From: a virus
DNA length: 37,404 nucleotides
Virus record (IMG/VR): IMGVR_UViG_3300046513_000246
Location: 1-37,404 of that record
Direction: 5' to 3' (one strand)
Within the stretch, counting starts at the first letter, position 1. Every line of letters starts with the position of its first letter. The notes beneath the pieces are model-generated. The model was not told where the DNA came from. It saw only the letters and a program-made list of their open reading frames with translations, and made no database searches. The translations under genes were made by a program, and so were the position numbers. Below, piece after piece: positions 6,178 through 33,688 of this stretch.

Positions 6178-6346
6178 ATGGGTCCTGATCCCAGTCTTTG
6201 CGGGCCTCACGGGTTACAGCGAAAAAGCCGTCCGCCGTAAGATCGAGGACGGCGTTTGGTTGGAAGGAAAGCACTACAGAAAAGCCCCAGACGGCCGGAT
6301 TACAATGAATCTTCAGGAATACTACAAGTGGGTCGAGCAAAATTAA
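6152..6346 (+). CDS. xis: Excisionase (Xis), 64 aa
   Basis: The sequence WVLIPVFAGLTGYSEKAVRRKI (first strand-helix-turn) followed by DGVWLEGKHYRKAPDGRITM and a terminal YYKWVE is the winged-helix excisionase pattern seen in phages with DUF3596-type integrases. The protein would bind near the attachment site, bend DNA and steer integrase toward excision. It ends 18 bases after the integrase start (GTG 6328), so the two are co-translated. Xis directly upstream of int is the usual order. Confidence 0.85.
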   Translation: MNAIVVHLEWVLIPVFAGLTGYSEKAVRRKIEDGVWLEGKHYRKAPDGRITMNLQEYYKWVEQN

Positions 6347-7482
6347 GCGGGGTTGAACTTCGGGAGAGTAGCATCCGCGTGCTGTTCTCCTATCAGGGCA
6401 AGCAGCGCAAGGAGCCGGTGAAGGTCGACGGCCAAGTGCTGGCGCCGACACCAGCGAACATAAAGTACGCGTCGCGCCTGGTGACCGAGGTCCGGCAGCA
6501 GATTGCTGCCGGCACGTTCGATTACCGCAACACCTTCCCAGACTCCACGCAAGCGCCGGATCCCGAGCCGGTCGGCCGAACTGGTGACGAATTGTTCTTC
6601 GACCTTATCGATCGCTGGTGGAATCTACTCGAACTGAAGCCGTCGACGAAAAGCCAATACCGCCAGCAGAAGGAGAACTTCTGGAAGGTGCACTTGCCCA
6701 ACAAGGCGATCAAGGAATTCGTCCATTCGGACATCAAGGCAGCCTTGAGGAAAGGCACCTGGAAGAGCAACAAGAGCCGTAACAACCAGCTATCGATTAT
6801 CCGCGGCGTCTTCGAGCTGGCGATCATGGACAAACAGATCAAGGAAAACCCGTGCGCAGGCCTCGAATACGCCGACGTGCAGCAGCGAGGCCCTGATCCT
6901 TTCTCCTTGGCGGAAGTGCGGAAGATCCTCGCCAGCGTCGCCGAGAATTACAACGAGCAGCTGTTGAACTATCTGCAGTTCCAGTTCTTCTCCGGCCTGC
7001 GGACGTCGGAAGCGATCGCGCTCACCTGGTCGAATGTCGACGTCAACAAGGGCGAGATCCTGGTTGACGCGGTCAATGTCTACGACGAGGAACAAGACTC
7101 GACCAAGACGTCGACCTCGCGCGTGGTCAAGCTCCCGCGGGAGGCGCTGGCAGCCGTGCTCTCACAAAAGCGGTTCACGGCCAACAGCAGCAAGGTATTC
7201 CACGATCCGTACTACAACGAGCCTTGGCTCTACCACAGGATCACACGCGCCGCCTTCTGGTCGACGACGCTCAAGCGGTTGGGCATCCGGCATCGCCGCA
7301 CCTACAATACGCGTCACACGTACGCGACCATCGGCCTCATGGCCGGCGTCAACCCGGCGTTTATGGCCCGCCAGTTGGGCCACAGCTTGGACATGTTTTT
7401 CAAGGTCTACGCGAAGTGGATCGACGGCCAGCACGACGAACGAGAGCTGGTCAAGATCGAGGCCGCGATTAAAGAGATTTAA
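6328..7482 (+). CDS. int: Tyrosine recombinase integrase, 384 aa
   Basis: GTG 6328 has AGGAAT nine bases upstream and gives the typical MGRxxxSGVELRESSIR start. The ATG at 6256 would read through xis. Residues about 7-70 match the DUF3596 arm-DNA-binding domain, about 87-175 the core-binding domain, and about 190-384 the catalytic domain. Visible catalytic residues are Arg225 (GLRTSEA), probable Lys260, Arg329-His330 (NTRHTYAT), His352 (QLGHS) and Tyr361 (KVYAKW). The first box-II His is Tyr326, as in related phage integrases. It would recombine attP with a tRNA-Ser gene, matching the fragment at 8805-8840. Confidence 0.95.
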   Translation: MGRAKLSGVELRESSIRVLFSYQGKQRKEPVKVDGQVLAPTPANIKYASRLVTEVRQQIAAGTFDYRNTFPDSTQAPDPEPVGRTGDELFFDLIDRWWNLLELKPSTKSQYRQQKENFWKVHLPNKAIKEFVHSDIKAALRKGTWKSNKSRNNQLSIIRGVFELAIMDKQIKENPCAGLEYADVQQRGPDPFSLAEVRKILASVAENYNEQLLNYLQFQFFSGLRTSEAIALTWSNVDVNKGEILVDAVNVYDEEQDSTKTSTSRVVKLPREALAAVLSQKRFTANSSKVFHDPYYNEPWLYHRITRAAFWSTTLKRLGIRHRRTYNTRHTYATIGLMAGVNPAFMARQLGHSLDMFFKVYAKWIDGQHDERELVKIEAAIKEI

Positions 7483-7549: not shown

Positions 7550-8176
7550 TTAGGCCACTTGCTCGTACGAGCATTTTTCGACCACATCCTTCATTAGTAT
7601 TTTTTCAGCAACCACCGCAGCAGCAAGTGCTAATGTTGCTTTTACAAGACCTTTGACTTCTGCAAACACTGCAGCAACAGATGTGCTTCCAGCTCGAATT
7701 GCGGACATGACGAATTTTGTGGCCAAATAAAAGAGTACAAATGGGACCAAAGCTACAGTCAAAAGAAGAAATGGCCCTGACCCGACAATCATATAATTCA
7801 TGACAATTTGCAGTGCACGACGACGCAGTTCTTTCACATACGCCTCCTGCTCAGGATTCGAAGTCTGAAACTTAGCGTCAATGTTCTTCTTATGAGCCTC
7901 ACGCAGAACTTCGTTACGTCCAATTCCTCTCTCCAGAAGCACAACGTGAATTAAAGAAAACCGCTCAGTAAATCTCAGGTATCCATTAATCAAACCACGA
8001 AGCCTCCTATAGAGCTCTGAATCTATTGACCAGCCATGCTCCAAAAATTCGGCACGAAGGTTGTCTCGAAGGTCAAAAAGTTGATCGCGATGATGGTCCA
8101 GTATGCTTTTTTTCAACGCAAACCGCCAAATCGCCAAAAGAAGCAAACCATTGATCCCGAGCATTATCAGATCCAT
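7550..8176 (-). CDS. Membrane protein of the att-proximal operon, 208 aa
   Basis: I place the start at ATG 8176. The ATG at 8182 abuts the AAGGAG ribosome site, whereas 8176 has six-base spacing. Hydrophobic segments lie at about 2-19 (LIMLGINGLLLLAIW), 124-155 (two spans, MIVGSGPFLLLTVALVPFVLFYLATKFVM) and a less hydrophobic Ala/Val-rich region near 165-195. Between the first and second lies a roughly 100-residue charged helical domain. No family is recognised. Its position between int and the attachment site, low G+C and own promoter are typical of lysogenic-conversion genes such as superinfection exclusion or defence, but this role is inferred. Confidence 0.75.
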   Translation of the reverse strand: MDLIMLGINGLLLLAIWRFALKKSILDHHRDQLFDLRDNLRAEFLEHGWSIDSELYRRLRGLINGYLRFTERFSLIHVVLLERGIGRNEVLREAHKKNIDAKFQTSNPEQEAYVKELRRRALQIVMNYMIVGSGPFLLLTVALVPFVLFYLATKFVMSAIRAGSTSVAAVFAEVKGLVKATLALAAAVVAEKILMKDVVEKCSYEQVA

Positions 8177-8186
8177 TTCCATCTCC

Positions 8187-9358: not shown

Positions 9359-9625
9359 ATGGACATCACATACGACATCGCCAAAGACGCAACCAACACT
9401 GAAAAGCACGGCGTGTCGCTCGCAGCAGCTGCCGACTTCGAATGGGACGAGGCGCTGGTCTGGGCCGATGAGCGTAAAGCCTACGGTGAGAACCGCGAGT
9501 GTGCCATCGGATACATTGGCAATCGCCTGTTCTACGTGGCGTACGTGGATCGCGAGGATGTCCGTCGCATCATCAGCCTGCGCAAGGCGAACTCAAGGGA
9601 GGTAAGACGATATGCCGAAGCTTAA
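9359..9625 (+). CDS. brnT: BrnT-family toxin, 88 aa
   Basis: The N-terminal pattern D-x-A-K-x-x-x-N-x-x-K-H-G-V-S (residues 6-20) and the C-terminal RRIISLRKANSREVRRY are hallmarks of BrnT, a RelE-fold ribonuclease toxin of type II toxin-antitoxin systems that halts translation by cutting RNA. Length is normal. The start at 9359 matches the family N-terminus, yet no ribosome site precedes it and the promoter -10 lies only six bases upstream, implying a leaderless mRNA. brnA overlaps it by 14 bases. In a phage it could stabilise the prophage or defend against other phages. Confidence 0.9.
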   Translation: MDITYDIAKDATNTEKHGVSLAAAADFEWDEALVWADERKAYGENRECAIGYIGNRLFYVAYVDREDVRRIISLRKANSREVRRYAEA

Positions 9626-9902
9626 ACCGGGGACTGTGGTCCCTACGGCGGAGGAGGACGCTGCGATCACCGCGGCCGCAATGCTTGACCCTGACGCGCG
9701 CCCGTACACGGACGAGGAATGGTCGAAGGTGAAGCCGAAGCGCGCGCGCGGGCGGCCGCCGCAGGAAGTCACGAAGGTGCCCGTCAGCATCCGCCTCGAC
9801 GCGCGCGTGGCAGATGCGTTTCGGGCGACAGGGGAAGGCTGGCAAACGCGGATGAATGACGCCCTGTTCGAGTACGCTCAACAGCACGGTATGATGGGAT
9901 GA
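9612..9902 (+). CDS. brnA: BrnA-family antitoxin, 96 aa
   Basis: The C-terminal half (VPVSIRLDARVADAF, about 56-70, then GEGWQTRMNDALFEYAQQHG) is the BrnA ribbon-helix-helix domain that binds DNA and neutralises BrnT. The N-terminus (PDARPYTDEEW, about 27-37) is the toxin-wrapping region. A strong GGGAGG lies upstream of ATG 9612, in contrast to brnT, which would favour antitoxin excess. It probably represses the repeat-rich promoter at 9283-9352. A hairpin overlaps its stop codon. Confidence 0.9.
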   Translation: MPKLKPGTVVPTAEEDAAITAAAMLDPDARPYTDEEWSKVKPKRARGRPPQEVTKVPVSIRLDARVADAFRATGEGWQTRMNDALFEYAQQHGMMG

Positions 9903-13948: not shown

Positions 13949-16798
13949 TTAAGGCAGCATTTTGAGGTTGTGGCAGAGCATCCCGCCTGCGAAATAAGTA
14001 CCAGCTCCCTCGACGCGGTACGAAACGACCTGCCCTTCGCCCACGGCGAAAACGCTGTCGACCACACATTCATCGAGGCCCATGATGTGGTCTCCAGAAC
14101 GCAGATTTTGCACTGCGGTCCAGCCGCGGTCGACCACGGCGAAACGATGGTTTTCGCTCCATTCGGTAGCAGCGCCGTTCGTCAGCTTGATCCGGTAGCG
14201 CAGCTTCCAGATCGTGGCCACATCGCGCACGATGCCCCCTTGAGGCAGGGGCAACATGGTGTTGTCGTCGACGGCCATCACGCGGGCGCCGTTATGCAGC
14301 TCGCTCGCGTTCACGTCGCAGCCGTTGGCAAGTCGTACCTTGACCCATGGCGCCGGACATGCACCGCCACCGCCACCCGACGTGCCGCCGGAACCGCCAC
14401 CGCTGGAACCGCTCGTGCCGGTGATGGTCGTCGTTGTCAGCGCGGTGCCGTTTGCGGATCCGGCCGCAAAGTCTTGCGTCGCGGACCAGCCGTACGTATT
14501 CGAGTAGCGCACGCGCATCAGGCCGGTGAATACGCCGTTCGTTTCATACTGCTGCGAGACGCCCGGTAGCGCGCCGCTCCCGGCGAAGCGCCAGCCATAC
14601 GACCACGAGCCCTGCGCAATGCCGCTGGCACCGTCGTACGTGCGCGACGGACACCCCCAATAGAACTGAACGAACGGGGAAGTTGCCGTCGTCGATGCGA
14701 ACAACTGCACGTGAATTTGCTGCATCGCATCCAGGTTGTCCGTGTACGTCGAATAGCTTGTCGGCGTGATGGCGAAGTTGTGGTAAATCTGCTGAAAGTT
14801 CGAATTGAGTACCTGCGACGCGACCGGCGTGATCGAGAGGCACCCGATGTTCGGCGCGCCGCCGCGAGTAGTGGAATCGTTGTTCCCGCGCCAGATCACA
14901 CGCCCGCCCGCAACACTGCCGTCGATGCCCTGGACCAGACGGAACCAGTAGTCGGAGAACACGACACTGCCCACCTGGAGCGAGCTGTTCGCAACCTTCA
15001 GCGCTGTGCCGGCCGAAGCCAGCTTGGCGCCGGCCGTCGGATTACCGCTCCCATCTTCCGAATAATTCGACGTGCGCAGATCGGACACCATGGCCGACTG
15101 GATGGCGGCTGAGGCAATATATGTGGAAGCATTCGCCGGCGTGATTTGCCCGCCAACGTTCGTACCGAACGTGGCACCCACGGTGGCATTGTCGGCCGGC
15201 TTGCCGGTACCTGTGACCCCGCCCCAGGTCGACAAGGTTGCGGATTTTGCCGCCAGTGCATTAATTAGTTTCTGTTTCTCGTCGTAATAGGCGTTCCACT
15301 TGGCTTTCCACGTGGTCGGGTCGATCGCCGTGTCCTGCGTCGTATCCGACCATCCTGGATTCAGGGATATGAGGTAGGTGGACAGCGCTGAATGCGCAGC
15401 ATCGTAGTTTGTACGCGAGACCCCGAGCGCATCCGATTGCGTGTCGAGTGATGCCCGTTCGTTGTCGCACGTGTTCCACCGCTGGACCACGTCCAATTTT
15501 TCGCCCTTGGAAAGCACGCCGTCGCTGTTGATGTTTACGATCGCTGCATTCGCCGCGTCGGCCGCTGCCTTGGCCTCCGTCGTGCTCGGGTAGTATGCGG
15601 GCAACACGTCACCCTCGACGATCATTACGTCATCGATGATGATATTTCCGCCGCTCGGGCCGGATGACACCGAGATGTATATCCGGCCGCTACTCTCGAC
15701 GCTGGCGCCCCACGTGATTTTAAAGGCGTAGCGCTGCCATGCCGTTGTCACCCCGGGATTCATCAATTCCGTCAGTGTGCCGGGGTTCGTATTCCATTGG
15801 AGCGACATTGTTGTGCCGCCCGAAATATTCGTCGTTTTTGCGTAAAAGCTGACGACGTATGTGGCACCGACAACCCAACCATTCGGCACCGCGCCTGACC
15901 GCGTTATCCCCTTCGTGTATGAGTGGCTGTTGCTCCAAGAGATCGCTTGTGCGTTGCCGCCCGTGCGCCCCGCCCATAGCGACGCCGACGCCGGCTCATC
16001 TACAGAATTGTTGTTGTAGATGGCCCAGCCATCGGCCAGGGTGCCGTTAGAGACGACTTCGAACGAGCTGTTCGGGCACAGGTTGTCGCCGCCCACGATG
16101 CCGGCGAAATATGCCGCCGGCAAGCCGGTCCCGGCACCAAGGATGATGTTGCCCTGCGCGTCTTTGACCGTCAGGCCGCGGGTGTCGATCGCTTCCGGCA
16201 GGATCGATCCCTTGACGAATACGTTCCCATTCCACACGTAGTCGACGGTCACCCAAGCGCTGCCGTTGTACATCTTCTGCGTGCCGAACGTACGGTCCGA
16301 CTTGTACAACGTGACCATGTCGCGGACCTGCGGCGAACCATATCCGGCGGCGGCCAGCGCCGCGACGGCTTCGCTGTCCGACCACACGGATCCGGATGTC
16401 ACCGCCGCGATGTCGACGTTGCCGCGAGAACCCTGCTGGCCTGTGCTGCCGTCCGCCACTTTCGAGACGGTCACGGTCTGCGTGTAGATCTGGCCGTCGA
16501 CGGTAATACTGGCCGTGATGGTTCCGGACACCGCCGAAAAGCTTGCGAAGCTGAGCGTGGCCGTGTTGCCGCTGATGGACAGCGCTATGCCGCCGCTGTA
16601 CGACCAGGTCACGGTACCGGTCATGTTCAGGAGGGTCGCCGTGAATGTGAACGAGCTCGGCGACGCCGTCAACCCGTCCGATGACACCTTGAAAATGGAA
16701 GCCGACGGGGTGAGGAACATGCCGCGATCCGTCGGCGGGTTGTAGCGCGTGGTCGCGCCCATGATCAGCACGTCGCGGTCATTGACAACAGTGGCCAT
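13949..16798 (-). CDS. Large tail-tip/receptor-binding protein with C-terminal Hint domain, 949 aa
   Basis: The order is: an N-terminal attachment part with Ig-like strands (about 30-115), a short collagen-like GSTGQQGSRG turn (about 120), a jelly-roll carbohydrate-binding-like module (about 235-405), a helical section (about 420-520), a beta-rich region, a Gly/Ser linker (about 795-812), and a Hint (intein/hedgehog-type) domain from Cys814 to His943-Asn944. The Hint domain shows the conserved W-TAVQNLRSGD segment and the C-terminal HN pair. Such domains self-cleave. It would form the central fibre or tip. It begins adjacent to the DUF2163 gene (TGATG). Confidence 0.8.
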   Translation of the reverse strand: MATVVNDRDVLIMGATTRYNPPTDRGMFLTPSASIFKVSSDGLTASPSSFTFTATLLNMTGTVTWSYSGGIALSISGNTATLSFASFSAVSGTITASITVDGQIYTQTVTVSKVADGSTGQQGSRGNVDIAAVTSGSVWSDSEAVAALAAAGYGSPQVRDMVTLYKSDRTFGTQKMYNGSAWVTVDYVWNGNVFVKGSILPEAIDTRGLTVKDAQGNIILGAGTGLPAAYFAGIVGGDNLCPNSSFEVVSNGTLADGWAIYNNNSVDEPASASLWAGRTGGNAQAISWSNSHSYTKGITRSGAVPNGWVVGATYVVSFYAKTTNISGGTTMSLQWNTNPGTLTELMNPGVTTAWQRYAFKITWGASVESSGRIYISVSSGPSGGNIIIDDVMIVEGDVLPAYYPSTTEAKAAADAANAAIVNINSDGVLSKGEKLDVVQRWNTCDNERASLDTQSDALGVSRTNYDAAHSALSTYLISLNPGWSDTTQDTAIDPTTWKAKWNAYYDEKQKLINALAAKSATLSTWGGVTGTGKPADNATVGATFGTNVGGQITPANASTYIASAAIQSAMVSDLRTSNYSEDGSGNPTAGAKLASAGTALKVANSSLQVGSVVFSDYWFRLVQGIDGSVAGGRVIWRGNNDSTTRGGAPNIGCLSITPVASQVLNSNFQQIYHNFAITPTSYSTYTDNLDAMQQIHVQLFASTTATSPFVQFYWGCPSRTYDGASGIAQGSWSYGWRFAGSGALPGVSQQYETNGVFTGLMRVRYSNTYGWSATQDFAAGSANGTALTTTTITGTSGSSGGGSGGTSGGGGGACPAPWVKVRLANGCDVNASELHNGARVMAVDDNTMLPLPQGGIVRDVATIWKLRYRIKLTNGAATEWSENHRFAVVDRGWTAVQNLRSGDHIMGLDECVVDSVFAVGEGQVVSYRVEGAGTYFAGGMLCHNLKMLP

Positions 16799-27396: not shown

Positions 27397-27956
27397 CCGT
27401 ACACCTTCAGATCATCCAGGAGGCGCCCCACGAAGTTCGACTTCACCGACTCCTTGAACTCCTTGATAAGCGGATCCCACTGCTCAGCCAGTCGCGCGAG
27501 GATGTAGAGCCGCGCGGTCGGCGGAACCGTCGTCGCATCCGGGCCATAACCGGCCGTGTAATCGACCGTGACCGCATTGATGCGTGCGGAGGTCGCAGGC
27601 CACGCCTTGCCGGTGGCCGGTACGACGTAACCCGGCTCCGATACCTTGTCCTCGTAGAAATCGGCCGGGTCGAGGGTTTGTGCTTGTCCGCTGACGTCGA
27701 TGAACTTGACGCTCTCCACGCTGTATGTCGGCGCACTCAATCGGATCGCATCAGGAAACGCGTCCAACGTCACTCGCATAGGGCGGTTGACGAACGCCCT
27801 TCCGGCCAAATGCTCGGCCTCGGCGACAATACCGGCGATCCAGATCGCGATCTGCGAATCAAGGGCGGTATCGTCCTGATCGATGCGGAGCGTGTCTTTG
27901 GCGTCGGCCAGCGTCACCGCCATCACCGCGGGCGGCGAGACTTGTCGTGTGGTCAT
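27393..27956 (-). CDS. Head-tail connector gp6-like protein, 187 aa
   Basis: ATG 27956 overlaps the stop of the repeat-containing gene. The front half (VTLADAKDTLRIDQDDTALDSQIAIWIAGIVAEAEHLAGRAFVN, about 14-59) is the classic HK97 gp6-type connector start with the helical LRID..D motif. The end (LYILARLAEQWDPLIKEF) is also typical. It forms a ring under the portal. Confidence 0.88.
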   Translation of the reverse strand: MTTRQVSPPAVMAVTLADAKDTLRIDQDDTALDSQIAIWIAGIVAEAEHLAGRAFVNRPMRVTLDAFPDAIRLSAPTYSVESVKFIDVSGQAQTLDPADFYEDKVSEPGYVVPATGKAWPATSARINAVTVDYTAGYGPDATTVPPTARLYILARLAEQWDPLIKEFKESVKSNFVGRLLDDLKVYG

Positions 27957-29464
27957 CGAAGATTCCTTTGTGTCGCTGCAGGTCGCCCCGAGCTCGTTGT
28001 GGCCGGCCGGCTGTCGTTGTAATGAGACTTCGCCGCGTAGCCAGAGCCGGCGGGCGCGCGTGCATAGGCGATCTGTGCGCTGTAGCGCAATTGGCCGTCG
28101 GCGCCAATCACCACGAAGGAGCTTGTATCTGCGGTCATGCGCCGTGTGACGCGAAGCACGGCAACAGCACCGGATGCCCCGAACGTCCCAGCGGACGAAG
28201 CCAGGCGACGGCCAGCTGAAAGCGCGACAGCGGTACTAGTCAATCCGAACGCCCCCGTGCCGGCCGATAGCCTCCTGTGCGCCTGCATGGCGGTTGGTGT
28301 ACCCAGCATGCCGAACGTCCCAACCGTGACCGTAAGCGTATACGTCGGTCCGCCTGGCCCAGGCACGGGCGTGTAGACCATCTGTACGGTCCCAGGCGAC
28401 AGCACGAATGCTCCCGGCTGGGCCGACAAACGGCGGGACGCCACCATCGGTGCGGTAGAGGCCTGAATGCCATACGTGCCGGCACCGGCAGCCAGCTTGC
28501 GGGCTGCGATGATCGATGCCGAGCCACCGGCCAGGACGAGGGCTCCGGCGCTGGCGGGCAGGCGCCGCGATGCGATCAGATTCGCTGGCGTCCATCCTGA
28601 CGTCAACGCCCCGGTTGCCGCTACCAGACGGCGGGACGCCGACAACGCGGCTTGCGTAGCCGACAATAGAAACGACGCTGCCGCCGCCTGGAGGACATAG
28701 GCGGCTGAAACTATCCGAGGCATCCATATCCGCCGCGGCGAGGCCCTGAACAACTGCCACGGATTGTCGGCCAGTGATTGCATTTCCGCGTCGGTCAGCG
28801 TGCGGTTCCAGGCCGCGACGAGCGACAGCGAGCCCGTGTTCCAACCCTGCGATGCAGTCTGCCGCGCGCCGACGGTCGGCGCGAATCCCGTACCTACCGC
28901 AACCAGCCCCGACGGTGTTGCGGCGGTGGCTTTGCCGTTCTGGAAAACCGCCGTACGCGTCGGGCTGGCCGTCGCACCCATCGTGAAACCACGCGACATT
29001 TCCGCCACGGTCATCGCGACAGGTGCCGTGGCTTGCCCCGTTACGGCCGCGCTACCGTTGAACGGGATGAAGTCGGCTTTACCGTTCGCCAGCCTGAACT
29101 GGTAATAACGACCAGCCCCGCCGTTATCCATGTCGATCGCGGATTGCGTGATGGCCGCGCTGGTCGCGGTACCAACTGCGAAAAGACTATAGCTCGTGCT
29201 GTTGATGCCGCCCGGCGGCGTGTACAGAATATTCGACGCGGCGCGCGCGCCGGTGCCGATCGGGCTGTTCGACTGCGCGCCGGTCGTGTACGCGGCAGTC
29301 GAAATTACGGCTCCGGTCGAGTTTGCCGCGAAGCCGTACGCCTGATCGGCGTGCGACATGCACAGCACCATGTCGCGCGTGATCGGGTTGTCCCAATCGA
29401 TGAGCTGTGCCTGCCATGGCTGCGGCTGGATGGTCCTCACGCGCTTTCCGGCGATCGCGGCCAT
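27953..29464 (-). CDS. LamG-like protein with about nine 22-residue repeats, 503 aa
   Basis: The N-terminal half (about 1-240, TLTDAEMQSLADNPWQLF at its end) is the concanavalin-like LamG fold seen in phage surface proteins. From about 260 to 460 a 22-residue unit recurs: RRL or RKL/RRM, A/S, two small residues, G-x-F/L/Y, then a small-residue strand and SAS/A-like end. Seven units keep the Arg-Arg-Leu-like start. One is interrupted by a GPGGPT insertion. It is encoded between the connector and small head genes and may be a head or neck fibre. Function is inferred. Confidence 0.6.
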   Translation of the reverse strand: MAAIAGKRVRTIQPQPWQAQLIDWDNPITRDMVLCMSHADQAYGFAANSTGAVISTAAYTTGAQSNSPIGTGARAASNILYTPPGGINSTSYSLFAVGTATSAAITQSAIDMDNGGAGRYYQFRLANGKADFIPFNGSAAVTGQATAPVAMTVAEMSRGFTMGATASPTRTAVFQNGKATAATPSGLVAVGTGFAPTVGARQTASQGWNTGSLSLVAAWNRTLTDAEMQSLADNPWQLFRASPRRIWMPRIVSAAYVLQAAAASFLLSATQAALSASRRLVAATGALTSGWTPANLIASRRLPASAGALVLAGGSASIIAARKLAAGAGTYGIQASTAPMVASRRLSAQPGAFVLSPGTVQMVYTPVPGPGGPTYTLTVTVGTFGMLGTPTAMQAHRRLSAGTGAFGLTSTAVALSAGRRLASSAGTFGASGAVAVLRVTRRMTADTSSFVVIGADGQLRYSAQIAYARAPAGSGYAAKSHYNDSRPATTSSGRPAATQRNLR

Positions 29465-29940
29465 TACGTGTACTGAACCGCCGTCGCGGCCACCTTCATC
29501 GTCCAGTTCACATTAATCGACTGACCGCTGCGATTCACGATGTAGACGTTGTACAGGAGCGGCAACAGTTCGACCGTGCCGGATTGCATCAGTAGCGCCG
29601 AATTTGCAGTCGGGACGCGCGCAAAAACGAACGATCCGACGCGCATCGGATACGGGATATAGCTTGCACCCGCCGTCGTGTCGATGTCGGGGAAATTCGC
29701 CCCGTCGATAGCGGGGACGAGGTACAGGTCGGCGGCGGTCGTGCCGGCCACAATGCCCGTATTTGCTGCGACGGCTGCCGACAGCGAAAACTGCGACGCC
29801 AGCGCCTCGATTGCGCCGGACGTGCCGCCCGAACGACAATCCAGCGATGCGGCCAGGCCGGCTGAACCAGCCGTCAGGGACGCCCCGGTCGTGGTGAGCG
29901 TGACTGGGGCGCCCTCTTGCCATTTGATCGTACCGGCCAT
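29464..29940 (-). CDS. Structural-region protein, 158 aa, unknown
   Basis: ATG 29940 (TAATG-type junction with its neighbour). The sequence is Ala/Thr/Ser-rich and beta-like (SGAIEALASQFSLSAAVAANTGIVAGTTAADLYLVPAIDGANFPD) with a YNVYIVNRSGQSINVNWTMKV end. It resembles small phage virion proteins of this module, but I cannot name a family. Likely a head decoration or head-fibre partner. Confidence 0.55.
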   Translation of the reverse strand: MAGTIKWQEGAPVTLTTTGASLTAGSAGLAASLDCRSGGTSGAIEALASQFSLSAAVAANTGIVAGTTAADLYLVPAIDGANFPDIDTTAGASYIPYPMRVGSFVFARVPTANSALLMQSGTVELLPLLYNVYIVNRSGQSINVNWTMKVAATAVQYT

Positions 29941-30398
29941 TATTTCAACTCCAATGCGTCAATGATGTCCCGCGCGGCAGGCGCGGGGATGCCCAGCACA
30001 TCGGCGCGGGACGCCGGAACTTGCGCAAGCGCGTACAGGTTGTTCACCTGTTCCACGGTCGCGATGCCGCAGGCTACCCAGCTGGCGAGCATGGCCTCGA
30101 GCCGCGGGTCCTCGACGTGGATTGCATCGCCACACGCGAACGAGTCCCGAATGACCAGGCACGACGCACGGCACGGGCTGTTCACGTCGTTGCTGGCGTC
30201 GACGATGCGGGCGTAAGGTCCGGCAGCGGCCCACGCCTTTGCAGTCGTCGAGCGCAGCGGACCCGTCATAGTCGTGACCAGCGCCGTGATCAGCTCGACG
30301 ACGCGCGCAGGGTCCGCCGGAAGATGCGCACCGTAGCCACGGCCCGCCGGGTCGTTCGTCAACTCGGCGCGCAGGATTGCAAACTGTTCGGAGGTCAT
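29940..30398 (-). CDS. Structural-region protein, 152 aa, unknown
   Basis: MTSEQFAILRAELTNDPAGRGYGAHL is the conserved-looking start of proteins found in this position in related phages. The middle has several Cys/Asp residues (DVNSPCRASCLVIRDSFACGD) and the end is helical (LYALAQVPASRADVLGIPAPAARDIIDALE). No family assigned. Starts overlap the neighbours by few bases. Possible head accessory. Confidence 0.55.
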   Translation of the reverse strand: MTSEQFAILRAELTNDPAGRGYGAHLPADPARVVELITALVTTMTGPLRSTTAKAWAAAGPYARIVDASNDVNSPCRASCLVIRDSFACGDAIHVEDPRLEAMLASWVACGIATVEQVNNLYALAQVPASRADVLGIPAPAARDIIDALELK

Positions 30399-30400
30399 GA

Positions 30401-30814
30401 TCAGGTCAGGGTAAATGCCCCGGCCGCTTGGTCGAGGTCGATCAAAATCGTTTCGGTGTCGTTCAGCGTGATCGACGAGCCGTAATCGTAGAAGCCGATC
30501 AGGTCGCCGTTCGTCGCCGTGGCGTTGGCCAGCACTGCATAACGGAACGGTCCGACCGTGCCGCCCGCTGCGGTCAGCGTCAGGTCCGCCAGGACCTGCT
30601 TGTAGACGCCGCCGGTTTGCGCAGCCGACGACGTGGTCACATTGCGCGACGAGCAGTTCGTATAGCTGATCTGCGTGATGTCCGCCGTAACAGCTGCGGT
30701 GGCAGCGTTCGGCGCCGTGTTAGTCAGCAGGATCACCAGCTGGTCGGTCGCCAGGTTGTGCTTCTTCTTCGCGAGCGCCTCGACGAACGCATTGATTTTC
30801 GTGAATGTGGCCAT
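30401..30814 (-). CDS. Probable head decoration or accessory protein, 137 aa
   Basis: ATG 30814 is preferred over ATG 30820, which touches the AAAGGA site. The sequence ([37 protein letters not shown] front, Thr/Ala-rich beta body, then [17 protein letters not shown]) matches small structural proteins encoded near the head genes in many siphoviruses. It sits just left of the acyltransferase insert. Decoration role is inferred from position and size. Confidence 0.6.
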
Positions 30815-30935
30815 TGCCATCCTTTCATTGTTCTGCGAGCCGTACGCCCATGGGTGACCGGCCCTGCGTCAGCGATGCCGACGAGGTTTCAAAGAGTGTT
30901 TCCAGAAATATCTTAGAATTAACAAAAGTTGATTT

Positions 30936-30965
30936 TTGGACAGTTCCGTATGAGTATTCTGTAAT
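30936..30965 (+). promoter_or_regulatory. Promoter of the acyltransferase gene
   Basis: TTGGAC (30936-30941), an 18-bp spacer and TGTAAT (30960-30965, five of six consensus bases) lie about 20 bp upstream of the ATG at 30986, in the A+T-rich 170-bp gap between the head gene end at 30814 and the acyltransferase. TTGATT at 30929 is a poorer -35. The rest of the gap shows nothing clear. Confidence 0.4.
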
Positions 30966-30985
30966 CAATTACCAATGGAATTGTC

Positions 30986-32029
30986 ATGAAAGCAACTGAC
31001 AGGCAAAACAACTTCAACCTGCTGAGACTTGTTCTTGCGATGCTTGTAATCCTTAGCCACTCATCTGAGTTAATCGACGGGAATCGAAGCAGAGAATTGT
31101 TAAGTAGGATCTTTGGCACTCACTCGTTCGGAGACTTGGCTGTGGGAGGCTTCTTTTTGCTGAGCGGCTATCTGATCATGCAGAGCTGGGAGATCCAGCC
31201 GCAGCCATGGCAATTCATAAAAAAGCGCGTTCTCCGCATATACCCGGCGTTTATCGTCGCAAGCTTGGCGTGCGCGGTGTGTGTAGGCCCTCTTGCTGCA
31301 GACCCAGATCGCTATTTCGCTTCCTTCGACGTACTTGCGTTCCTCAAAGGGCTTTTATTTTTGCAGAAGCCGGTTGTACCGTCTGTATTCGTCGGTCAGC
31401 CATACCCGGTGATAAACGGTGCTTTGTGGACGATTTGCCGCGAATTCTGCTGCTATATGCTTGTACTCGCCGCTGGCATCAGTGGCGCACTGCGGATTCG
31501 GCATCTCTGGTTAGCCGTGACGGCCGTTGTGCTTGCCCTCATCCTCGTGCCGAATCTGGTTCAGGTGCCTGGAATCGATTCTAGGGATCTCCGGCTTGCG
31601 AGCTTTTTTATGAGCGGCGGATGCTTCTACATTTACCGAAAAAATCTGAGCTTCCGAGGTCCCTTGGCTGCGCTCTTTGCCGTAGCCGCATGCCTAGCCC
31701 TGTTCTCTTGGCGTGCTACGGACCTCGCTCTGCCTACCGTTGGTGCATATGGCTTGCTCTACGCCGCGAGCAAGCGCTCTGCGCTACTTAGCCGCTTTAA
31801 TCGCCTTCCTGATGTTTCATACGGCGTCTACCTCTACGGCTGGCCGATCCAGAAACTTTTTGTTTGGTATTACCCATCAATCTCGCCATGGCTGATGGCG
31901 GCACTCTCCATGGGCTTAGCACTGCTGGCTGGTACAGCAAGCTGGTATCTCATCGAGAAGCCAGCTCTTCGTTTAAAGGGTCCTGCCTTTGCGCCAGCGG
32001 AGCCAACATCAACACCCGTCATGACGTAA
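30986..32029 (+). CDS. Acyltransferase-3 family membrane protein (OafA-like), 347 aa
   Basis: Family features: LVLAMLVILSHSSEL (first span, His in the start), GFFLLSGYLI (about 55-64), RVLRIYPAFIV (basic Arg-x-x-Arg loop, about 80-90), ALWTICREFCCYML (about 146-159), VSYGVYLYGWPIQ (about 276-288) and WYLIEKPALRL at the end. About ten membrane spans. These proteins move an acyl group onto cell-surface sugars or peptidoglycan, so it may alter the host O-antigen and block phage adsorption. It runs against the late operon, its base composition is lower in G+C, and it has its own promoter. Confidence 0.88.
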   Translation: MKATDRQNNFNLLRLVLAMLVILSHSSELIDGNRSRELLSRIFGTHSFGDLAVGGFFLLSGYLIMQSWEIQPQPWQFIKKRVLRIYPAFIVASLACAVCVGPLAADPDRYFASFDVLAFLKGLLFLQKPVVPSVFVGQPYPVINGALWTICREFCCYMLVLAAGISGALRIRHLWLAVTAVVLALILVPNLVQVPGIDSRDLRLASFFMSGGCFYIYRKNLSFRGPLAALFAVAACLALFSWRATDLALPTVGAYGLLYAASKRSALLSRFNRLPDVSYGVYLYGWPIQKLFVWYYPSISPWLMAALSMGLALLAGTASWYLIEKPALRLKGPAFAPAEPTSTPVMT

Positions 32030-32209
32030 TTCCGACAGCCGGTCGGCGATGAACGCCAACAGCTCGTCGTCCGATTTGCCGACTATGTCTTCGGTAAAGA
32101 TCGCCACCGACCCGCCGCGTGTCTTCCGACGGATGACGACGACGAAAACGTGCGGGTCCGCAGCCTGGGCCCGCACGTTGGCGAGCCATGCGGATTCCGC
32201 TGGGCTCAC
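32009..32209 (-). CDS. Small protein beside the capsid gene, 66 aa
   Basis: GTG 32209 lies four bases after the neighbouring stop at 32214. The longer upstream frame is a shadow. The product (SPAESAWLANVRAQAADPHVFVVVIRRKTRGG then a helical DIVGKSDDELLAFIADRLSEL end) is alpha/beta with no named family. Its 3' 21 bases overlap the acyltransferase 3' end tail to tail. Likely part of the head operon. Confidence 0.6.
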   Translation of the reverse strand: MSPAESAWLANVRAQAADPHVFVVVIRRKTRGGSVAIFTEDIVGKSDDELLAFIADRLSELRHDGC

Positions 32210-32213
32210 GGTG

Positions 32214-32375
32214 TTACTGCGCCAGCGATTCGGCGTATGCGACCGCGTCCGGATCGGCGTCGATGGTGCCGGCCAAAGCTTTAACCTGCTTCGCGTCGAT
32301 CTCGACCACGTCGTTGCACTTGCCGAGCTCGCAATCCACGAGGACACGCGCTTTTACTTTCTGGGCTTCTGCCAT
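32214..32375 (-). CDS. Small head-region protein, 53 aa
   Basis: ATG 32375 is preceded by GGAGAT, and the TAA ends at 32214. The 53-residue product (MAEAQKVKARVLVDCELGKCN..., then DVVEIDAKQVKALAG) has a short strand with two Cys (15 and 20) and a helix. I recognise no family; small proteins with strand-then-helix layout often follow the capsid gene in such phages. The frame is shorter than 60 residues but the ribosome site and order support it. Confidence 0.6.
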   Translation of the reverse strand: MAEAQKVKARVLVDCELGKCNDVVEIDAKQVKALAGTIDADPDAVAYAESLAQ

Positions 32376-32425
32376 GTTCTATCTCCGTTGATGGCAGCCG
32401 GCACCATGCCGGCCGCCGATTACGA

Positions 32426-33688
32426 TCAGGTCGCGCTGTTCTGGTAGGTCTTGACGGCGCCGCCGACGTCGATGAAGTTGCCACCGGTGCGCATGAAAGC
32501 CACGAAACCGATCTGGCCATTCAGAGTGAATGCCGAGTCAGTCATGCGGAATACGGTCAGGTCCATCACGTCGCGGATCATGTACTTGCTGTGCTGGCCG
32601 AACAGGATCGACTTCGCATTCGCAGCCATGACCGGCACGTCTTGATTGATGACGATCGGGCGCCCCATCAGACGGTCAGGTGCGCCGCCGTTGACCATCG
32701 CGTCGCCTTCGTAGCCGGGCACGAAGATCGGGCGGCCCTGGCCATCCTTGATCTTGCGGACAACTTTGACCGAGCTGTCGTGCATCATGTAGGCCACGCC
32801 CGGCTGCGAGCGATACGCCGGGTCGATCGAATGCTCCAGGTCGACCAAGTCGTCGTAGATGACGCTGGCCGTCTGGCCCGTGATGCCGGTCTTGCCGATG
32901 CCGGCAGCGGTCACCAGGCCGCGCGGCTGCCCGGTACCCGTACCGTTGGTGTAGTGGGAGTTCTGAATACGGCCCAGGCGCATTGCCAGCAGGGTCTGGA
33001 CATAGGCCTCGATGTCGATGAACGAGTCCTGCACCAGTTCGAACGGCAGCGCGATCGACTTGGACGAGTACTTGTACACGTCCATGGTCAGGTTCGAGAA
33101 ACTGGTATTCAGCGCGGTCGCGCCGCCGTTCTGGCCGACGATCTCGCCGATTTCCGAGGTCGGGTCGCTGGCCGGGAAGTTCATCGTGGCGCCGGAACCG
33201 GTGCGGAACACCGTTGCCACCGAACGCATGCCGCCGTACGCCTTCATGGCGATTTCGAGCTGCTTGTAGTACTCGGGCGAAACGGTGTAGCCGCCTTCGG
33301 AATTGGTCGTGGTCGACATCGCCGCACGAATGTCCGGAGTCTGGCGCGCGAGCATGCGCTTGCGGTCATCCTCGGCCATGCTGTTAATGCCGCCGGCCAG
33401 GAACGCGCGCAGGGCTTTTGCCTCGTCGCCCTGCCTGCCCGGCTCGCGGGTGGCCGCGTTCAGTGCGGCTTCGTGTGCGGCAGCCGGGTTGCTTTCCAGC
33501 GCCAGGCGAGCCATTTTCTGTTCGCGCGCGATCTCATCGTCGATCGATTCGACCTGGGCCAGGACTGCATCCAGCTTCTCGGCTTCGGCGGCCGGCATAC
33601 GCTGGTCGGCCGGGTACTTGTTGTTCAGTTCATTGGCCTGTTTGGCCGCTGCGTCGCGCTGGGCGCGCAGTTGTGCAAGCTTGCTCAT
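32426..33688 (-). CDS. Major capsid protein, HK97 fold, 420 aa
   Basis: ATG 33688 (GGCACTCCCCAC region; AAAGG upstream). Residues about 1-110 form a Lys/Glu/Ala-rich coiled coil, the delta or scaffolding domain removed by the protease. The shell part begins near residue 120 (STTTNSEGGYTVSPEYYKQLE) and has the typical YVQTLLAMRLGRIQNSHYTNGTGTGQPRGL block and a DVPVMAANAKSILFGQHSKYMIRDVMDLTVFRMTDSAF C-terminal region. It builds the icosahedral head. It follows the protease gene. Confidence 0.95.
   Translation of the reverse strand: MSKLAQLRAQRDAAAKQANELNNKYPADQRMPAAEAEKLDAVLAQVESIDDEIAREQKMARLALESNPAAAHEAALNAATREPGRQGDEAKALRAFLAGGINSMAEDDRKRMLARQTPDIRAAMSTTTNSEGGYTVSPEYYKQLEIAMKAYGGMRSVATVFRTGSGATMNFPASDPTSEIGEIVGQNGGATALNTSFSNLTMDVYKYSSKSIALPFELVQDSFIDIEAYVQTLLAMRLGRIQNSHYTNGTGTGQPRGLVTAAGIGKTGITGQTASVIYDDLVDLEHSIDPAYRSQPGVAYMMHDSSVKVVRKIKDGQGRPIFVPGYEGDAMVNGGAPDRLMGRPIVINQDVPVMAANAKSILFGQHSKYMIRDVMDLTVFRMTDSAFTLNGQIGFVAFMRTGGNFIDVGGAVKTYQNSAT

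Follow-up and report, generated by a model that had tools for sequence, protein, structure and literature searches.

A likely host-derived acyltransferase-3 gene lies antisense behind the capsid gene of a probably temperate soil phage, in a slot where such genes recur

Shigella phage Sf6 carries oac, which encodes an O-antigen acetylase (gp15) and confers immunity to superinfection (PMC9558356). The gene lies opposite to the tailspike gene and has an annotated promoter and terminator. P22 pid, like the gene that we describe here, is antisense in the late region, and relatives of P22 have at that place either an empty site or another insert (PMC3573128). The Tab gene of phage JBD26 is also comparable, as it lies on the opposite strand within the late operon; it has its own promoter and is expressed from the prophage (PMC10884400). 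Tab has been called a moron in a looser sense of the word, that of an added gene, for which a terminator is not required (PMC10884400).

The gene analysed here belongs to a 37,404-nt stretch of viral DNA (IMG/VR record IMGVR_UViG_3300046513_000246), referred to as the window, and coordinates are those of the window unless another genome is named. The genes for the terminase (37306), portal, protease, capsid and the small proteins that follow the capsid are all on the minus strand, as are those for head completion, tail and lysozyme. The major capsid protein is of the HK97 type (32426-33688, minus strand; PF05065, E=7e-59). In the tail region, a 949-aa protein (13949-16798, minus strand) has a weak intein-splicing match over residues 823-906 (E=0.0012, below the cut-off). 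The virus is probably temperate, because a tyrosine integrase gene is present (6256-7482, plus strand; PF00589, E=7e-15; PF12167, E=3e-19). Adjoining the integrase gene is a 210-aa gene (7550-8182, minus strand) that is very A+T-rich (GC 0.44, GC3 0.41), matches phrog_13156 of unknown function and is a candidate second moron, and a 96-aa protein encoded at 9612-9902 on the plus strand matches phrog_4692, a toxin-antitoxin antitoxin family (E=2e-19). By megablast, the head region had no match among named phages. The closest named prophage is that of Massilia rhizosphaerae (capsid 85%, terminase 95%), so the host is likely to be Massilia or a relative, and we are probably dealing with a phage of soil bacteria.

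Within the head operon, an open reading frame with an ATG start runs rightward on the plus strand (30986-32029), and the flanking head genes are all on the minus strand, in agreement with the initial annotation. It encodes a standalone AT3 membrane acyltransferase of 347 aa. The PF01757 (Acyl_transf_3) profile matches residues 9-316 with profile positions 3-321 of 326 (E=5.2e-24, 85 bits, where the cut-off is 31 bits), the O-acetyltransferase family phrog_3333 matches with E=7e-32, and the SGNH domain is absent. A search of NCBIfam returned no name. AT3 proteins share an R/K-x10-H motif in TMH1, an FFxISG-type motif and RxxR in loop 2-3, and in OafA the counterparts of R14, H25 and both RxxR arginines are essential (PMC7448272). 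All three motifs are present here, as R14-x10-H25, FFLLSG (56-61) and R81-x-x-R84, and R14, H25, R81 and R84 are invariant among 29 phage AT3 rows. The identification as an acyltransferase, first made from the letters of the DNA, is therefore confirmed, since the profile match spans the domain and the catalytic residues are present. Two positions before FF the protein has a glycine (Gly54) instead of the Asp that nearly every other row of alignment A1 shows; among wider phage AT3s this position is variable. The structure model (pLDDT 92.7) is all helical, with 14 helices of varied length; the fold expected of the family has ten transmembrane helices. Its sole standout structural match is human HGSNAT with acetyl-CoA, and this match is weak (probability 0.96, TM 0.44, E=0.22); in PMC12423673, HGSNAT and AT3 are placed in one superfamily. 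Searching the PDB by sequence returned no AT3 among solved structures.

The ends of the insert can be fixed to the base, because five relatives with an empty site (L228, L229, L002, L224 and L230) align across the junction. When the flanks in the window are joined with one copy of CGGCT omitted, the alignment with these empty sites is colinear. Such a comparison had been proposed as the way to define the ends, and it shows that the boundaries first given, 30936-32029, were too narrow. The entire insert is 1,194 bp long (30843-32036) and contains 143 bp of upstream region, the gene and 7 bp past the stop codon. On both sides there is a 5-bp direct repeat, CGGCT on the late strand (left copy 30838-30842, right copy 32037-32041). 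By a simple count, which is a rough estimate, a chance overlap of at least 5 bp is expected at such a junction in less than 1% of cases, and therefore the repeat represents a target duplication or microhomology. We considered a mobile element or cassette and rejected it, as the insert contains no transposase or other gene and no terminal inverted repeats by eye. Illegitimate recombination is the likelier route, because there is no transposase and because the ends of this insert and those of the insert in the related phage L161 (see below) are unlike when read side by side. None of the fetched relatives that share the junction of the window carries the insert.

The initial annotation stated that the gene splits the head module. 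It is indeed inserted in the head module, but not between genes, as the insertion cuts through the final codons of the second small late gene after the capsid gene (32009-32212, minus strand). The split falls after the Arg-Leu codons of this gene, which now encodes 67 aa with a new C terminus, SELRHDGC, that is encoded by the insert; its 3' end and that of the acyltransferase gene overlap by 21 bp. The former end of the small gene, CGG CTC GCA GAA CAA TGA (RLAEQ-stop), is stranded on the other side of the insert (30825-30842, minus strand), and in L228 and L002 the small gene runs on into this same sequence. In the five empty-site relatives the small gene is uninterrupted and reaches the next gene, which in L228, L229, L224 and L230 is a homologue of the 139-aa gene adjoining the insert (30401-30820, minus strand; phrog_644, up to 96% identity in relatives). 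Homologues of the small gene extend beyond the truncation point in all five and also in L083, L048 and others. Of the small genes after the capsid gene, the first encodes 53 aa (32214-32375, minus strand) and is kept in relatives. In many relatives the slot after it is occupied by an 85-aa gene (L161:1735-1989, minus strand; L075:8480-8731) that replaces the 67-aa gene and is unrelated to it.

A finding that the initial annotation had missed is that the slot behind the capsid gene recurs for AT3 genes. A profile scan identified IMGVR_UViG_3300028585_000538 (L161), a phage with related head genes (capsid 65%). Its AT3 gene is 57% identical to that of the window, is also antisense and also comes after the second of the small genes that follow the capsid gene, truncating the end of that small gene, and its insert likewise has a short end repeat, GCTG at both junctions. 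Unlike in the window, the interrupted gene belongs to the 85-aa family, and the junction flanks are not homologous. The empty site in this case is provided by L075, where the 85-aa gene ends in IELEAINKAV instead of the IELP found in L161. Because the interrupted genes are of different families and the flanks are not homologous, either the two insertions are separate or the cassette has moved. In L162, which has another capsid type, an AT3 gene that is 55-56% identical lies antisense in the interval between capsid and connector, ahead of the connector and flanked by genes for a PcRGLX-like 863-aa and a SASA-esterase-like 1058-aa protein. The PcRGLX-like protein (L162:5691-8282, minus strand) has an apparent N-terminal signal peptide by eye, which is unusual for a virion head protein. 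A PF01757 search of 50 phage records, a set that excluded L161 and L162, gave two matches, L071, whose AT3 is unrelated and lies on the sense strand within the capsid-connector interval, and L082, which is another phage type with an antisense AT3 gene adjoining lysozyme. Antisense calls in the interval of other relatives (for example L063, 361 aa; L032, 365 aa) appear from their residue make-up to be shadow frames and were set aside. From these comparisons, an AT3 gene is rare in these phages, yet its placement is non-random. The antisense orientation, with only three cases, could be due to chance or could be a condition of retention.

The composition of the acyltransferase gene is clearly foreign. 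Its GC3 is 0.586, compared to 0.792 +/- 0.037 for the late genes (minimum 0.725), and the GC content of the insert is 0.520, compared to 0.628 +/- 0.018 in stretches of equal length (1,194 bp) from the late region, which bears out the earlier description of the gene as A+T-richer. Base composition unlike that of the phage is one mark of a moron; another is absence from the same place in relatives, as in the five empty sites. What had been named as speaking against the initial annotation was a gene carried by all relatives at the same place and with phage-like composition. This is not what we found, as AT3 occurs in only 2 of the 50 records and five relatives have the empty site.

To judge from its homologues, the gene is likely host-derived, from a Massilia-type source. 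It forms a clade with the L161 gene and three Massilia copies (support 98/97). These Massilia-type chromosomal orphans (L121, L124 and L125) resemble the window gene in sequence (56-59% identity), in the N-terminal NNFNLxRL and in a related upstream region; they differ from it in being chromosomal, beside unrelated host genes, and in a higher GC3 (0.69-0.86). A homologue at E<=1e-40 is present in 4 of 62 genomes of the M. rhizosphaerae genus, three of which are 56-59% identical, and at E<=1e-60 in 20 of 393 genomes of the family. The chromosomal homologues examined are single orphan genes in mixed surroundings, outside any recognised O-antigen cluster. For them we rejected an origin in a prophage of the window's type, as tblastn with the structural genes of the window detected none of these nearby (about 10 kb). 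AU tests do not reject a single clade of phage genes, either for window, L161 and L162 (p 0.117) or for window and L161 (p 0.228), and the first, wider AT3 tree had long branches.

The claim that the gene has its own promoter stands in part. The upstream 60 bp can be aligned among chromosomal and phage AT3 copies, and a candidate promoter, TGGACA-17-TGTAAT (30937-30965, plus strand), matches at 10 of 12 positions. On the other hand, a consensus promoter scan found nothing, 30 of 1,000 shuffles (3%) score 10 or more and the -10 element TGTAAT has no A at position 2. The relatives L161, L162, L124 and L125 have a promoter sequence TTGnnn-17-CATACT (-35 TTG, -10 CATACT), which aligns at 30929-30960 of the window, where the spacing is 3 nt longer. 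The candidate overlaps this ancestral-type promoter site and may serve in its place. Downstream of it is a conserved leader with a weak Shine-Dalgarno sequence (GGA) and the start codon (30973-30988, plus strand), which aligns with TGGAACGG..ATG of the chromosomal copies and L161; the window keeps a TGGAACGG-like leader. Promoter activity is plausible from this conservation. After the gene, where 7 bp of insert remain past the stop codon, no terminator-like site was found, nor was one found on the minus strand within the insert. By having no terminator of its own, the gene falls outside the classic two-signal definition of a moron (promoter plus terminator).

The interval between capsid and connector (27957-32425 in the window) varies among relatives from 23 bp to 8.1 kb, with lengths of about 350 bp or 2.3-4.8 kb being the commonest. 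Long intervals encode SASA-, GDSL-, LamG-, BNR-, esterase-, fn3- or PcRGLX-like proteins, several of them with matches below curated cut-offs. In the window this is a 503-aa protein (27953-29464, minus strand) with weak lectin-like (LamG) similarity (PF13385, E=0.0043, below the cut-off). The interval was also noted in L052, L054, L071, L077, L100, L102, L103 and L162. This suggests that the interval proteins are virion proteins that meet host glycan, with a capsid location proposed on the basis of gene order.

We consider it probable that the gene is a late-operon moron, a host AT3 gene that was inserted antisense together with part of its upstream region, is expressed in the lysogen and acylates a surface glycan, thereby altering the phage receptor. 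The gene would have arrived by a recombination that left the 5-bp repeat, landing at the end of a small gene that follows the capsid gene. During lysogeny, the late operon would be off and the AT3 gene would be read from its own promoter. An acetyl (acyl) group from cytoplasmic CoA would cross the inner membrane via R14/R81/R84 and H25, and the acceptor would be a surface or periplasmic glycan, such as the LPS O-chain, capsule or another polymer. The acylated glycan would be an altered receptor, and related phages dependent on the glycan in its unmodified form would fail to adsorb. Upon induction, late transcription would have to traverse the insert toward the remaining head, tail and lysis genes, and antisense silencing of the AT3 gene is then possible. 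By analogy with Sf6 Oac, O-antigen modification with superinfection exclusion is consistent with the family.

Alternatively, the enzyme may act on a glycan that is not a receptor, such as peptidoglycan, osmoregulated glucan or exopolysaccharide, and give the lysogen another benefit, for example lysozyme or stress tolerance. AT3 proteins act on a wide range of substrates (PMC9558356, PMC9833829) and the chromosomal relatives are orphans, but the recurrence of the gene beside lectin-, BNR- and acetylesterase-like head-region genes points to a glycan that the phage encounters, and we regard this alternative as unlikely. A role in the lytic cycle, where acylation of glycan early in or throughout infection would free progeny from debris or shut out competitors, seems less likely still. 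The gene comes with its own candidate promoter sequences, which would need no phage factor, and P22 pid, an antisense moron of the late region, is expressed in neither strict lysis nor strict lysogeny (PMC3573128). However, late transcription would run antisense across the AT3 gene, and phage AT3 genes are best known for lysogen conversion (PMC9558356). Least likely of all is a passenger without function for the phage, a host fragment from illegitimate recombination that is tolerated since it does not stop late transcription; the damaged end of the small gene, the lack of the insert in every fetched relative with the same junction and the alteration of a conserved residue at Gly54 would fit this, but the frame and catalytic residues are intact at 57-59% protein identity to the nearest relatives, and passengers do not explain why L161 and L162 have a gene of this family, likewise antisense, in the corresponding interval.

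If the gene is a moron that alters the receptor, as we favour, the interval may have a wider meaning. Tentatively, and with considerable doubt, it can be seen as a receptor-conflict locus, where virion proteins would bind or de-acylate a glycan and the recurrent antisense AT3s would acylate the same glycan in the lysogen, from opposite strands and with opposite timing. Should the neighbouring lectin- and esterase-like proteins be part of the virion and share their glycan target with the AT3 enzyme, the locus would open the coupling of receptor attack and superinfection exclusion to direct testing in a soil bacterium outside the usual model organisms, and would hint that these phages bind glycan through their capsids.

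Among the known systems, Sf6 oac comes closest. Like the window gene, it is a standalone AT3 gene of a temperate phage, antisense to a late neighbour, with a promoter sequence of its own, in the window a candidate, and adjoining a gene for a glycan-active virion protein, which in the window is a predicted one. Both proteins fall in PHROG O-acetyltransferase families, with 31% identity over 37% of the query. Sf6 oac differs in having an annotated terminator and a proven substrate and in its position between integrase and tailspike, whereas the window gene is inside the head operon. The other two systems share the antisense position and differ in the product: P22 pid encodes an 86-aa protein with another function, and Tab is a small assembly inhibitor, not an enzyme, encoded between the terminase genes. 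This kind of gene is already known, and the added value of the present locus is the recurrence of the slot and a history, exact to the base, of what is probably a host gene turned phage moron, for which there are empty sites, a likely source of host type and a further insertion at the corresponding place in a related phage.
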